Below, one piece after another: positions 9,366 to 22,706 of a DNA stretch of 64,000 nucleotides. A program made the translations under genes and the position numbers. The notes below the pieces were generated by a model. The model made no database searches, was not told where the DNA came from, and saw only the letters and a program-made list of their open reading frames with translations. Each line of letters starts with the position of its first letter. Position 1 is the first letter of the stretch. Source of the DNA: Agromyces cavernae (lineage in GTDB: Bacteria; Actinomycetota; Actinomycetes; Actinomycetales; Microbacteriaceae); the NCBI RefSeq assembly GCF_021044935.1, contig NZ_JAJNMP010000003.1, forward strand, positions 124,001 to 188,000, in the 5' to 3' direction.

Positions 9366-9379
9366 ACGGCGACGCGCGA

Positions 9380-18313: not shown

Positions 18314-18748
18314 TCAGCTCGCGGCGGTGCGATACCCCTCGGTGACCTCGTCCTTGTGGGCGGCGAACGCGGCGAGGACCTCGCCCTTCTCGCGTTCCGG
18401 CACACCGACGGCGTCGAGCGTGCGCCCGAGCTCGGCGGCCACCTCGTCGAATTCGTCGGGCGAGATCCGCAGCTTGCGGTGGGCCTCTTCGAGACCGAGG
18501 ACCGTGCTGCCGGGAACGGTGGCCGTGTACTCGAAGGGTCCGCCGGCCACATTGCAGACCCAGAGAGTGCGCATGAACTTCAGGCCGGGGAGCCTTCCCA
18601 GATTCTGGGTATGCCACTCGCGGAGGGCCGGATTGGCTGACTGCTGGCCGACCATCGGATTCTGCACGACGGCGTCGCTGAAGTGGTCGACGACGGCGGC
18701 GATGGCGAACACGCCACCGAGGCGTTCGTAGAGGCTTGGCTCTGACAT
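18314..18748 (-). CDS. Group 1 truncated haemoglobin
   Basis: A 144-aa protein starting with the trHb signature SLYERLGGVFAIAAVVDHFS. The proximal haem ligand is the His in LGLEEAHRKLRIS; the N-terminal YERLGG and the FKFMRTLW-like region (LKFMRTLWVCNVAGG) fit the 2-on-2 globin fold. Group 1 truncated haemoglobins bind O2 and NO and commonly detoxify nitric oxide. AAAGGGG precedes the ATG at 18748. It is divergent from the orphan sheath gene, with about 75 bp between starts. Confidence 0.88.
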   Translation of the reverse strand: MSEPSLYERLGGVFAIAAVVDHFSDAVVQNPMVGQQSANPALREWHTQNLGRLPGLKFMRTLWVCNVAGGPFEYTATVPGSTVLGLEEAHRKLRISPDEFDEVAAELGRTLDAVGVPEREKGEVLAAFAAHKDEVTEGYRTAAS

Positions 18749-18824: not shown

Positions 18825-20057
18825 ATGTTGATTATACAGCGTGGGCCATCCGACGTCCATCGGCTGTTCCTTGACACCGGCCACCGGCCGGAGGAGGCTC
18901 GCACCGAGGACCACGGGCGCGCACCCGCTCACGAGGAGGTGGGGCCGATGACACGACCGATCGAGGGAGTCGGCACAGCGGTTGCGGCCTTCGTCGGGCT
19001 CGCCCCGGGCCCGCCCGACTTCGAAACGCCGACCACGTTCGACGAATGGGGCACCGACGAGGACGCGCTCTTCGACCACCTCCGAGGTCGTGCCCTGGGC
19101 AGCGCGGTGCGGGCCTTCTTCGAGAACGGAGGTCGGACCGCGGTGGTGATCGGCGTCGAGGACGCCGGGTCCGCAGCCGTGCGGGCCGGCCTCGAAGCGC
19201 TCGACACGGTGGACCTCGTCAACCTGCTCGTGCTCCCGGCGGAGTCCGCGGATCGCGAGGACGCCCGTGACACCGTGGCCGAGGCCGTCGCGTTCTGCGA
19301 GCGCCGACGAGCGATGCTGCTCGTCGGCCCTCCGCCGGGCTGGACCGACACCGCTGCGATCGAGGCCGCACTGGCGCGGGGCGTGGAGGCGGCGGTCGGC
19401 ACCTCGAGCCCGAACGCCGCGCTCTACCTGCCGCGGCTGCGCTGGTCCGACCCGGTCCAGGGCGCGGTGCCCGAGGTGTCGTCGGCGGCCGGCGCCGTGG
19501 CCGGCGTGATCGCCCGCACCGACGCGACCGAGGGTGTGTGGAGCGCTCCGGCGGGGATGGACGCCGAGCTTCGCGGGGCCGTCGGCCTCGATTTCGAGCT
19601 GGACCAGGACGACGCGCATGCACTGAACACCGCCGGCGTCAACACCCTGCGCATGTTCCCGGGGCGGCGGAGCCCGATCGTCTGGGGCGCGCGCACCCTC
19701 GCGGGCGCCGACTCCGCAGCGAGTGAGTGGAAGTACGTGCCGGTGCGCCGCACCGCGCTGTTCCTCGAGGAGAGCATCGAGCGCGGCTTGGACTGGACGC
19801 AGTTCGAGCCGAACGACGGGGCGCTGTGGGAGACGGTGCGCGACGCGGTGGGCACGTTCCTGTACGACCTGCACCGGGCAGGCGCGTTCCAGGGTCGATC
19901 GCCCCGCGACGCGTACTTCGTGCGTTGCGATCGCGACACGATGACGCAGCACGATCGCGAGACGGGTCGCGTGGTCGTGCGCGTCGGCTTCGCGCCGATC
20001 AGGCCGGGCGAGTTCGTCGTGCTCACCATCCTGGCGTCGGCACTGCCCGCGACCTGA
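18825..20057 (+). CDS. Contractile-tail sheath protein (phage/eCIS-type), orphan
   Basis: Up to 410 aa. The N-terminal domain has RPIEGVGTAVAAFVG and GSAVRAFFENGGRTAVVIGV; the C-terminal domain has LNTAGVNTLRMFPGR, VWGARTLAG, WKYVPVRRTALFLEESI, QFEPNDGALWETVRDAVGTF and a final VGFAPIRPGEFVVLTI. This is the standard tail-sheath fold, at the compact size seen in contractile injection systems rather than T4. No tube, baseplate, spike or AAA ATPase gene is nearby. Two starts are possible: ATG 18825, 6 nt after TATAGT (leaderless), or ATG 18948 after AGGAGGTGGGGCCG. I favour 18825 because the residues before 18948 (APAHEEVGP) align with the conserved APGVYVEEV arm, so the apparent ribosome-binding site is EEV coding sequence. 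The first 30 residues look atypical. Confidence 0.88.
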   Translation: MLIIQRGPSDVHRLFLDTGHRPEEARTEDHGRAPAHEEVGPMTRPIEGVGTAVAAFVGLAPGPPDFETPTTFDEWGTDEDALFDHLRGRALGSAVRAFFENGGRTAVVIGVEDAGSAAVRAGLEALDTVDLVNLLVLPAESADREDARDTVAEAVAFCERRRAMLLVGPPPGWTDTAAIEAALARGVEAAVGTSSPNAALYLPRLRWSDPVQGAVPEVSSAAGAVAGVIARTDATEGVWSAPAGMDAELRGAVGLDFELDQDDAHALNTAGVNTLRMFPGRRSPIVWGARTLAGADSAASEWKYVPVRRTALFLEESIERGLDWTQFEPNDGALWETVRDAVGTFLYDLHRAGAFQGRSPRDAYFVRCDRDTMTQHDRETGRVVVRVGFAPIRPGEFVVLTILASALPAT

Positions 20058-20061
20058 TCCG

Positions 20062-21480
20062 ATGCCGCACCAGGACGGCGCTGCCGAACCGCGCACGGCG
20101 CGAGCGCCGCGCACACCGCGCTTCTCACGATCGTCCTGGACGATCGCGGCGCTCTGCAGCGGCACCGCGCTGAGCGCACTGAACTCGGGGATGATCGCCG
20201 TCTCGCTCAGCACCCTCCGGCGCGAGTTCGCGGTGGATGCGGCCGCGGTCACCTGGGTGATCTCGGTGTTCTACCTCACGTCGGCGGTGCTCCAACCGCT
20301 CATGGGGCGCCTCGCCGACCGATACGGGCCGCGCCGCGTGTTCAGGATCGGTATGTGCATCGTCATCGTGGCCGGCGTGCTCGGGCCGTTCAGCCCCTCG
20401 CTCGAGTGGCTGTGCGCCGCCCGGGTGGTGCTCGCGGTCGGCACGGCGACGACGTTCCCATCGGCGGCGTCGATGCTCCGGTCGATCTCGGCGGTTTCGG
20501 GCAGGAGCGCGCCGAAGATGATCGGCCGCATCCAGCTCATCGACACGAGCACGGCCGCGATCGGACCCATCGTCGGCGGCGTGCTCCTCGTGCTCTTCGG
20601 ATGGGAGGCGATCTTCTGGATCAACGTGCCCCTCGCCGCGATCGCGATCGTCAGCACCTCGATACTCGCTCCGAGAGACGGGACTCGCGACCGCCTGCCG
20701 TTGCGAACGACCCTCGCCGAGTCGGACATCCCGGGCATCCTCGCCTTCAGCGTCACGATCGTCGCGCTGCTCATGTTCCTGCTCGAGGTGACGACGGATC
20801 CGAACTGGCTGCTGCTGCCGGCCGCCGTCCTGGCTGCGGGGCTGTTCGTGTGGCGCGAGCTGCGCTGCGCGGCGCCGTTCATCGACCTGCGCCTGCTCGC
20901 CGCGAACGTGCCGCTCATCCGCGTGTACCTCACGTTCATCCTCGCGAACCTCGTGCTCTACAGCGCGCTCTTCGGCATGCCGCAGTTCCTCGAGGACCAC
21001 GCCGGGTTCAGCACGGCAGCCGTCGGTGCGATGCTCGTTCCGCTCGCCGCGTTCAACATCGTCATGACACCCGTCGTCGAGCGGCTCATCGACCGCCGCG
21101 GCCTCCGCACCGCGCTCGTGATCGGATCGGCCGGACTCGCGGTCGCGACGCTGGGGCTCCTCGTTCTCGCCGTGTCGACCGCGGCGTGGGTGGTGCTGCT
21201 CGTCACGGCGGCGATCGGCATTCCGTACGTCGTCGTGCTCATCGCGATCACCCAGTCGCTCTACGTGGCGGCGCCGCCCGATGAGGTCGGCGAGGCCGCG
21301 GGGCTCTTCCAAACGGCACGATCGCTCGGATGCATCGGCTCGACGGTCGTCGTCGGCGTCTCGTTCGCGTCGGGCACCGGGCCGATCGATTGGCTGCTGC
21401 TCGCCGGCACCACCGTGGTGCTGGCCGTGCTGGTGCTCGTGGTCATCGTGTTCTGGCGGACACGACCCTCGGACGGATAG
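20062..21480 (+). CDS. MFS transporter, DHA2 (EmrB/QacA-like) drug exporter
   Basis: A 472-aa membrane protein with 13-14 predicted hydrophobic helices. Helix 1 follows a polar, Arg-rich N terminus. DHA2 features are LNSGMIAVSLSTLRREF (motif D1-like) and GRLADRYGPRRVFRIG (motif A, loop 2-3). Such proteins export drugs or metabolites using the proton gradient. The ATG lies 4 nt after the sheath stop codon with no promoter-like hexamer between them, so both are probably on one mRNA, which is an unusual pairing. A terminator hairpin follows at once. Confidence 0.9.
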   Translation: MPHQDGAAEPRTARAPRTPRFSRSSWTIAALCSGTALSALNSGMIAVSLSTLRREFAVDAAAVTWVISVFYLTSAVLQPLMGRLADRYGPRRVFRIGMCIVIVAGVLGPFSPSLEWLCAARVVLAVGTATTFPSAASMLRSISAVSGRSAPKMIGRIQLIDTSTAAIGPIVGGVLLVLFGWEAIFWINVPLAAIAIVSTSILAPRDGTRDRLPLRTTLAESDIPGILAFSVTIVALLMFLLEVTTDPNWLLLPAAVLAAGLFVWRELRCAAPFIDLRLLAANVPLIRVYLTFILANLVLYSALFGMPQFLEDHAGFSTAAVGAMLVPLAAFNIVMTPVVERLIDRRGLRTALVIGSAGLAVATLGLLVLAVSTAAWVVLLVTAAIGIPYVVVLIAITQSLYVAAPPDEVGEAAGLFQTARSLGCIGSTVVVGVSFASGTGPIDWLLLAGTTVVLAVLVLVVIVFWRTRPSDG

Positions 21481-21545: not shown

Positions 21546-22706
21546 TCAGCCCCGCAGCGACGCGAAGAAGGCGCGGATGTCGCCGACGACGGCGTCGGGC
21601 ACCTCGAGTGCGGCGTAGTGACCGCCCTCCTCGAACCGGCTCCAGTGGACGATGTTGGAGTTGTCGCGCTCGGCGAACACCTTGATCGTCTGGAAGTCGT
21701 CCTTGAACACCGCGACGCCGGTGGGCGCGCCGTTCACCTGCGGCCCAGTCTCGTCGGACGCGGCATCGGCCCGCGCGTTCTCGAGGTAGCTGCGGCTCAT
21801 GCCGGCGGCGGCGTTCGCGAACCAGTTCACGCTCACCTCGGTGAGGATCTTCTCGAGCGGCACGAGCGAGGTGCCGTTGCCGAACGAGTTGAACAGCTCG
21901 CTGTAGGCGAGCAGGGCGACGGGCGAGTCGCTGAGGCCGACAGCGACGGTCTGCGGCCGCGAGGCGTTCATCGTGTTGTAGCCGCCGACCGACTGGAACC
22001 ACTGCATGTGCTCGAGCCCCGCGTAGTCCTGCGGCTCGAGGCGCTCGAACTCGCTCGGGTCGCCCGACGGGAACGAGAACAGCTGCAGCACGTGCAGGCC
22101 GAGGAAGCCCTCGGGGCTCTGCAGGCCGAGCTCGCGGGCGACGAGCGCGCCGTTGTCGGAGCCGTGGATGCCGTACTCGGAGTATCCGAGCCGGTGCATC
22201 AGCTCGTCATAGGCGCGGGCGACGCGGGCCATCGCCCAGCCGGTCTCGGTGACGGGGTTCGAGAAGCCGTAGCCCGGGGCATCCGGCACGACGACGTCGA
22301 AGGCGTCCTCGGCGCGCCCGCCGTGCGCGACCGGGTCGGTGAGCGGGCCGATCATGTCGAGGTAGTCGACGGATGACCCGGGGTAGGTGTGCGCGAGGAT
22401 CAGCGGCGTGGCGTCGGGGTGCGGCGAGCGCACGTGGATGAAGTGGATGGGCTGCCCGTCGATCTCGGTGATGAAGTGCGGGAACGCGTTGATGCGCTCC
22501 TCGGCGGCGCGCCAGTCGAAGTCGCGCCACTGGTCGACGGCGTCGCGCAGGTAGTGGTTCGGGGTGCCGGAGTCCCAGTCGTCCACGGCTGCGGGGTGGG
22601 GCAGGCGGGTGCGCGCGAGGCGCTCCACGAGGTCGTCGAGCTCGGCCTGGTCGACCTCGACGCGGAACGGGCGGATGTCGGTGCTGAGTGTCGTGGTGTT
22701 CGTCAT
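21546..22706 (-). CDS. Epoxide hydrolase (alpha/beta hydrolase, EHN domain)
   Basis: A 386-aa cytosolic enzyme with the N-terminal EHN domain (about 10-110: IRPFRVEVDQAELDDLVERL) followed by an alpha/beta hydrolase. The oxyanion region is LILAHTYPGSSVDYL (HTYPG, the HGxP-type motif), the nucleophile is Asp184 in HGSDNGALVA, and EEGGHYAALE near the end carries the catalytic His. These enzymes open epoxides to diols via an alkyl-enzyme ester. The ATG at 22706 is chosen because the next upstream in-frame ATG has no conserved sequence after it. Divergent from a WYL regulator with only 62 bp between starts, so probably its target. Confidence 0.9.
   Translation of the reverse strand: MTNTTTLSTDIRPFRVEVDQAELDDLVERLARTRLPHPAAVDDWDSGTPNHYLRDAVDQWRDFDWRAAEERINAFPHFITEIDGQPIHFIHVRSPHPDATPLILAHTYPGSSVDYLDMIGPLTDPVAHGGRAEDAFDVVVPDAPGYGFSNPVTETGWAMARVARAYDELMHRLGYSEYGIHGSDNGALVARELGLQSPEGFLGLHVLQLFSFPSGDPSEFERLEPQDYAGLEHMQWFQSVGGYNTMNASRPQTVAVGLSDSPVALLAYSELFNSFGNGTSLVPLEKILTEVSVNWFANAAAGMSRSYLENARADAASDETGPQVNGAPTGVAVFKDDFQTIKVFAERDNSNIVHWSRFEEGGHYAALEVPDAVVGDIRAFFASLRG

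Follow-up and report, generated by a model that had tools for sequence, protein, structure and literature searches.

We analyzed a 64,000-nucleotide stretch of the Agromyces cavernae genome (contig NZ_JAJNMP010000003.1, positions 124,001 to 188,000; hereafter the window), in which a gene for a contractile sheath-like protein lies next to genes for a globin, a transporter of the major facilitator superfamily (MFS), and an epoxide hydrolase (Table 1). The product of this gene is a member of the contractile sheath family, since both of its Pfam domains score above their curated cut-offs, with 57.3 bits for Phage_sheath_1 (PF04984; cut-off 31.4) and 35.5 bits for Phage_sheath_1C (PF17482; cut-off 26.9). 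An earlier model-made annotation of the stretch (the original prediction) had proposed such a profile search as a check on its sheath identification, which is borne out. The protein also matches a PHROG tail sheath family (E = 7.5e-46), its best relative of solved structure is 8bky, the sheath of the Streptomyces coelicolor contractile injection system (CIS; E = 3.7e-60), and its AlphaFold model (pLDDT of 89.4, pTM of 0.90) agrees in predicting a sheath fold. A Foldseek search with this model retrieved S. coelicolor CIS sheath chains (E = 1.4e-26; TMq of 0.82 to 9gts_2A), and an NCBIfam search with the protein returned no family up to E = 1. Similarity had originally been placed in the C-terminal half; the match there is real, but the N-terminal 80 residues match 8bky as well.

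Table 1. Features at the sheath locus, in window coordinates
Feature	Position	Strand	Basis and remarks
Bacterial-like (truncated-type) globin, divergent neighbour	18314..18748	-	PF01152, 31.8 bits
Upstream in-frame stretch (earlier N-terminus)	18825..18947	+	Most likely untranslated; without the PGVY(V/I)EE arm motif; the element at 18870-18901 lies inside
Promoter-like element CTTGACA-N13-GGAGGAGGCTCG	18870..18901	+	Upstream of orphan sheath family genes; exact pattern in 7 of 13 complete members
Shine-Dalgarno-like GAGGAGGTG	18933..18941	+	Direct reading; identical at the same place in L045, L047, and L048
Orphan armless sheath-like gene	18948..20057	+	369 aa; subtilisin-like sheath domain and sheath C-terminal domain; Pfam, PHROG, and PDB matches, AlphaFold, Foldseek
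MFS efflux transporter, nearest the DHA2 family	20062..21480	+	PF07690, 183 bits
Epoxide hydrolase	21546..22706	-	PF06441, 122.5 bits

Homologues of the window sheath occur in other Agromyces with 47 to 76% identity (76% in A. humatus and 64% in A. kandeliae). The orphan sheath family they form is present in 14 of 60 Agromyces genomes, one copy being a fragment at a contig edge. Nine of the 13 complete members lie on the side of what we call clade A, and four form clade B (L053 to L056; L and G numbers denote loci and genomes, respectively).

The original prediction had read the protein from position 18825, as 410 residues. This is most likely wrong, and the gene most likely starts at the ATG at 18948, because the promoter-like element lies downstream of 18825, because L050 has a stop codon four codons upstream of the equivalent ATG, and because a codon-usage gene caller chose the same start independently. 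This ATG is preceded by the Shine-Dalgarno-like GAGGAGGTG, and in L045 and L047 a stop codon is found 24 codons upstream of its equivalent. The PGVYVEE motif of the sheath arm (see below) is not found in the residues upstream of 18948, even if translation began at 18825. Read in frame, GAGGAGGTG gives Glu-Glu-Val, the residues that end the arm of the CIS sheath. These codons could possibly be a fossil of the arm that now serves as Shine-Dalgarno sequence, but GAGGAGGTG is also an ordinary Shine-Dalgarno sequence.

The upstream element, CTTGAC(A/G)-N13-GGAGGAGGCTCG (with GCGGGAGGCTCG in L051), is found 77 to 79 nt before the start in the window, L045, L046, L047, L048, L049, and L051, which are seven of the nine members on the clade-A side. 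No clade B member has it, the upstream DNA of all four being different; it is also absent in L050, and L052 has a looser version. Between pairs of the seven members, identity averages 92 and 95% in the two boxes, 49% in the spacer, and 30 to 34% and 36 to 46% in the DNA upstream and downstream of the element, respectively, with 29% expected by chance. The exact pattern occurs once in the window, versus 0.00 expected occurrences, and once each in 17 of 171 loci, all with a family member, several of these being copies of the same place. When two mismatches were allowed, one further hit appeared, unrelated, in L046. Judged by its sequence, the element is a putative promoter (TTGAC, 18 bases, GAGGCT) that would be specific to the sheath gene, and it might also be an operator.

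Sheath subunits give N- and C-terminal arms to their neighbours, which creates an interwoven mesh, as described in two reports (PMC10811340, PMC6088184). In the S. coelicolor sheath, according to a third (PMC10066040), the linker residues 21 to 25 are IEGVG, and when IEGVG was inserted after G25 more than 95% of the particles stayed extended. IEGVG occupies residues 5 to 9 of the window protein, and the N-terminal donor arm before the linker is therefore gone: the protein starts at the linker, without the PGVYVEE motif. Among the 13 complete members, 1) seven lack the arm entirely, 2) L051 and L052 carry a degenerate extension in which PGVY is missing (for L052, the ATG at 9376, upstream of the start chosen by the caller, was used), and 3) clade B keeps the arm as LSPGVFVREV; an intact arm motif is thus absent in nine. 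The arm is kept in every sheath that we read with CIS genes beside it, long or short. It is also kept in L016, whose 7.3-kb contig shows no further CIS match; L151, an N-terminally shortened caller reading with no other CIS match nearby, was left out of the count. When we listed the alignment columns that are conserved in at least 11 of 12 CIS-type sheaths (a set that includes L108, itself an orphan) and present in the window protein, 75 of the 94 were kept by at least seven of the nine clade-A-side members. The other 19 include Q363 and G366 at the C-terminal end, which are conserved in 11 of the 12 CIS-type rows and replaced in most orphans. The window protein retains the C-terminal strand EFVVL and does not have the large insertion seen in its nearest full-length relatives.

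The original prediction had found no other injection-system parts in the window, and we concur. CIS reference proteins matched nothing in the 64 kb besides the sheath and nothing within ~10 kb of the 14 orphan loci (L045 to L058), and in two control clusters they picked up the parts expected there. A PHROG scan of ten flanking proteins, the only ones covered for terminase and capsid, showed no phage structural family. The locus thus has neither a CIS-type tail protein in 64 kb nor a flanking structural PHROG to mark a prophage remnant, and several of the window neighbours are also found together in relatives that have no orphan sheath. The genome itself (G000; 4.07 Mb, 99.98% complete) has one sheath. 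Family searches gave no match in it for the tube, gp25, the spike OB domain, or the winged-helix domain of the CIS ATPase, and a tube protein query found nothing; searches for tube, gp25, spike, and AAA ATPase were positive in the control genomes G079 and G142. The genome-wide look for tube, gp25, and ATPase components that had been recommended thus leaves the orphan status standing. A dispersed CIS in G000, of which the sheath had been suggested to be a piece, finds no support in these negative searches. Across the genus, gp25 occurs in 19 of 60 genomes. It is missing from 11 of the orphan-bearing genomes, and the three that have it (G418, G443, and G415) are those, among the 13 besides G000, in which CIS genes were found.

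A maximum-likelihood tree built from 40 sheaths places the 13 orphans of Agromyces with the orphan L147 and with eight full-length sheaths that we call parent-type (L059, L108 to L112, L152, and L153) in one clade (100/100), separate from the CIS sheaths of Agromyces itself; the grouping of the 13 inside this clade is an open fork. L057, an armless orphan from another genus, groups with the Agromyces CIS sheaths (96/90, with an end branch of 1.22), apart from the window clade, which suggests that armless orphans arose more than once. Three long-branched sheaths have uncertain places (L058, L106, and L147), two of them orphan sheath-like genes (L147:7851-9071 in G1061 and L058:9383-10582 in Agromyces G428, which carries two orphan sheaths). 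A phage origin was considered and rejected: of the 282 matching phage records, none aligns over 80% of the query, and the best has 34.8% identity over 56%. Both of the viral contigs read, out of 12, carry full-length parent-type sheaths (L173 and L174). Plasmid homologues came from 122 records, and of the four examined, one is an orphan and the other three belong to CIS clusters.

Stray sheath genes and other CIS parts were also noticed. On plasmid NZ_CP109497.1 of Streptomyces sp. NBC_01431 (L168:7947-8987), an orphan sheath is annotated with 346 aa and with no CIS genes in the 49-kb stretch around it, as far as the incomplete PLSDB gene table goes. This annotated frame ends before the C-terminal strands and similarity continues past the stop, so that it looks like decay. 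Agromyces G435, which has an orphan sheath and no gp25 match, carries an orphan 140-aa gp19-like tube protein, 46 to 52% identical to Agromyces CIS tubes (L069:9794-10216, forward strand), and Agromyces G446 carries an orphan 138-aa spike-like OB-domain protein (L154:9724-10140, reverse strand) ~17 kb from its orphan sheath. In G719, of the same phylum, a 526-aa full-length orphan sheath with arm (L108:7906-9486, forward strand) lies among ordinary genes, and a Pfam scan of ten of its neighbours found no CIS part. A stand-alone YCII protein and a sigma factor are encoded ~1 to 2.5 kb downstream of it, which may or may not relate to a fusion seen in G753, of the same order. There, a sheath C-terminal domain (57.7 bits) is fused with a YCII-related domain (25.7 bits against a cut-off of 24) in one 259-aa protein (L113:7887-8666, reverse strand). 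No CIS reference protein matched beside the fusion, and no relative of it was found in the three other genomes of its family that were searched.

We then consider selection. Pairwise ratios of nonsynonymous to synonymous change (dN/dS; Nei-Gojobori, rough in high-GC DNA) for the sheath are 0.23 to 0.41 in the six closest pairs of clade A, with a median of 0.38 over its 21 pairs, and 0.16 to 0.43 in the six pairs of clade B. All 13 complete copies have open frames, and neither a broken frame nor a dN/dS near 1, the marks of a pseudogene, was found. In a neutral simulation with 0.2 to 0.25 changes per site per lineage (substitutions only, without indels), 4.6 to 2.0% of copies stayed stop-free. 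No focus of selection on the C-terminal handshake domain was observed: dN/dS is 0.34 there versus 0.33 in the subtilisin-like domain.

The surrounding genes are as originally described, a bacterial-like globin, an MFS transporter that starts four bases past the sheath stop on the same strand, and an epoxide hydrolase. A sigma-70-like promoter match at 18831-18859 on the reverse strand (TATAAT, 10 of 12) is directed at the divergent globin gene. The transporter scores under the threshold of all the NCBIfam models examined, the best 25 of 74 matched. Its pairing with the sheath, which had been put forward earlier, does not survive the comparison of synteny in relatives, since the two genes adjoin in only two of 13 loci (the window and L045), whose sheaths are mutual nearest relatives in the tree. 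A gene of this MFS family is found beside the epoxide hydrolase in L158, where the slot has no sheath, and apart from the sheath in L047. On gene order, the most plausible reading is that the two genes are neighbours by chance and that two close relatives inherited the arrangement. The slot itself is variable and frequently next to the epoxide hydrolase, which lies directly downstream of the sheath in four of 13 loci and one gene away in the window; counting paralogues, homologues of this enzyme at E ≤ 1e-60 are present in 42 of the 60 Agromyces. Ten genomes without an orphan sheath, of which G429 and G438 carry a CIS elsewhere, were read around the epoxide hydrolase (L155 to L163 and L165), and their slot is either closed up or filled by other genes. 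A conserved partner gene was rejected after clustering the families around the 13 loci, as no family adjoins the sheath at every locus. Clade B members share constant neighbours, and the 22 neighbouring families that were inspected look, by eye, metabolic or regulatory.

Taken together, these findings make it probable that the gene encodes an armless stand-alone sheath protein derived from a CIS. The firm part is that a CIS-derived sheath has been kept alone, has lost its donor arm, is under purifying selection, and shares an upstream element with its relatives. A CIS sheath protein would have lost its machine and been retained on its own, presumably in the cytoplasm. Because the donor arm is missing, no interlocked sheath could form, and the protein would be a monomer or form small oligomers. 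It might then act as a binding protein whose C-terminal handshake domain, still present, takes hold of a host protein or of arms from genuine sheath subunits. The binding partner is the weak part of this reading, and any one target is at best unlikely. Several observations weigh against the stand-alone reading. The median sheath dN/dS over all 78 pairs is 0.55, and the ratio is no lower than in eight neighbouring gene families (medians of 0.17 to 0.50), so the sheath is not unusually constrained. Between the window and L045 its dN is the highest of 14 genes (0.153; next 0.096) and its dS the second highest, which also fits loosened constraint. The family is patchy in the genus. Orphans with an arm and no CIS gene found nearby exist (clade B, that is four of 13, as well as L058 and L108), and, if the Glu-Glu-Val codons and the strand EFVVL are taken as remnants of arms, the loss may be recent or partial. 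No partner or phenotype indicates a function. The genome searches were leaky too: that for PF17482 missed this very gene in G000, that for the ATPase missed G415 despite its tube, gp25, and spike, and the CIS reference set failed to flag the spike-like protein of G446, so divergent or broken-up CIS parts could have been missed.

The patchiness, the high dN, and the median of 0.55, together with the stray parts elsewhere (the G435 tube, the G446 spike-like protein, the full-length orphan L108, and the Streptomyces plasmid orphan), would also suit a relic in slow decay, left over from a CIS cluster that was lost and persisting by chance in some lineages. With every complete copy open, within-clade dN/dS mostly at 0.16 to 0.43, an upstream element common to family members, and so few stop-free copies in the neutral simulation, we find this unlikely, and the pure relic of the original prediction is disfavoured. 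Still less likely is a natural blocker, an armless subunit that accepts sheath arms, donates none, and thereby caps or poisons the assembly of CIS, tailocins, or contractile phage tails. The lack of a donor arm alongside a preserved handshake domain, on average 57% identical to that of six parent-type sheaths, fits it, as do armless orphans in apparently two sheath lineages (the window clade and L057) and the baseplate protein BW1, which accepts sheath arms in a similar way according to PMC10811340. No result of the present analysis supports it directly, however. Constraint is not concentrated on the handshake domain, which is ~43% identical to that of the Agromyces CIS sheath, orphan sheath and CIS genes coexist in G418, G443, and G415, and several orphans have an arm (clade B, L058, and L108). 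The broader proposal, that Agromyces and other actinobacteria repeatedly turned CIS sheath genes into armless built-in blockers that take up arms from incoming or resident sheath subunits, donate none, and so halt the growth of contractile phage, tailocin, or rival CIS sheaths, is more doubtful again.

The original suggestion of a domesticated polymer holds in part: domestication accords with 14 of 60 Agromyces genomes and within-clade dN/dS well below 1, but a polymer is unlikely for a protein without the donor arm. More generally, a self-assembling polymer subunit, or a subunit of a CIS whose parts are dispersed or too divergent, could draw on the arm kept in clade B and on the limited sensitivity of the genome searches. 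We regard it as improbable, given the missing arm of the window protein, the negative family and tube searches in G000, and the clustering of CIS genes around the control sheaths. A functional two-gene operon with the MFS exporter, to which only the four-base gap, the shared strand, and the adjacency in L045 point, is very improbable and already largely refuted by the gene orders given above. The armless stand-alone sheath protein hence remains our preferred reading. To our knowledge, sheath proteins have been described as parts of phage tails, CIS, and type VI secretion systems. A literature search judged by titles and the starts of abstracts, with subscription journals mostly outside it, gave nothing on orphan sheath proteins or CIS in Agromyces. 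A family in one genus without its machine, nine of whose 13 complete members have no intact arm motif, suggests that the sheath fold is able to live independently. It also offers a natural experiment on arm function and a candidate for sheath-directed interference.

How does the window protein compare with known systems? Its closest non-Agromyces kin are the parent-type sheaths (505 to 671 aa), with 44 to 48% identity to six of them over the aligned part (alignment A2); unlike the window protein, they are full-length and have the N-terminal arm and the large insertion. L059 is flanked by CIS genes (tube, Pvc16, AAA, and the core of extracellular CIS), and a tube-like or AAA match, in some cases weak, lies beside L109 to L112, L152, and L153 and none beside L108. 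In size (Pvc2 and Afp2, for comparison, have 354 to 355 aa) and in lacking the large insertion, the window protein resembles the short one-domain sheaths of CIS clusters (L105, L107, L114, L145, L146, and L150; 379 to 425 aa). These differ from it in keeping the arm and in having tube, gp25, spike, and baseplate J matches alongside, in six of six cases. Cis2, the S. coelicolor sheath (PDB 8bky, 8bl4, 9gts, and 9gtp), has an N-terminal arm (the residues preceding I21) and, separating the two stretches that match, an outer domain 3, for which we see no counterpart in the window protein, and it belongs to a CIS according to PMC10066040, whereas no CIS parts were found with the window protein. Both sheath domains, the IEGVG linker, and the overall fold are nevertheless the same in Cis2 and, as predicted, in the window protein.

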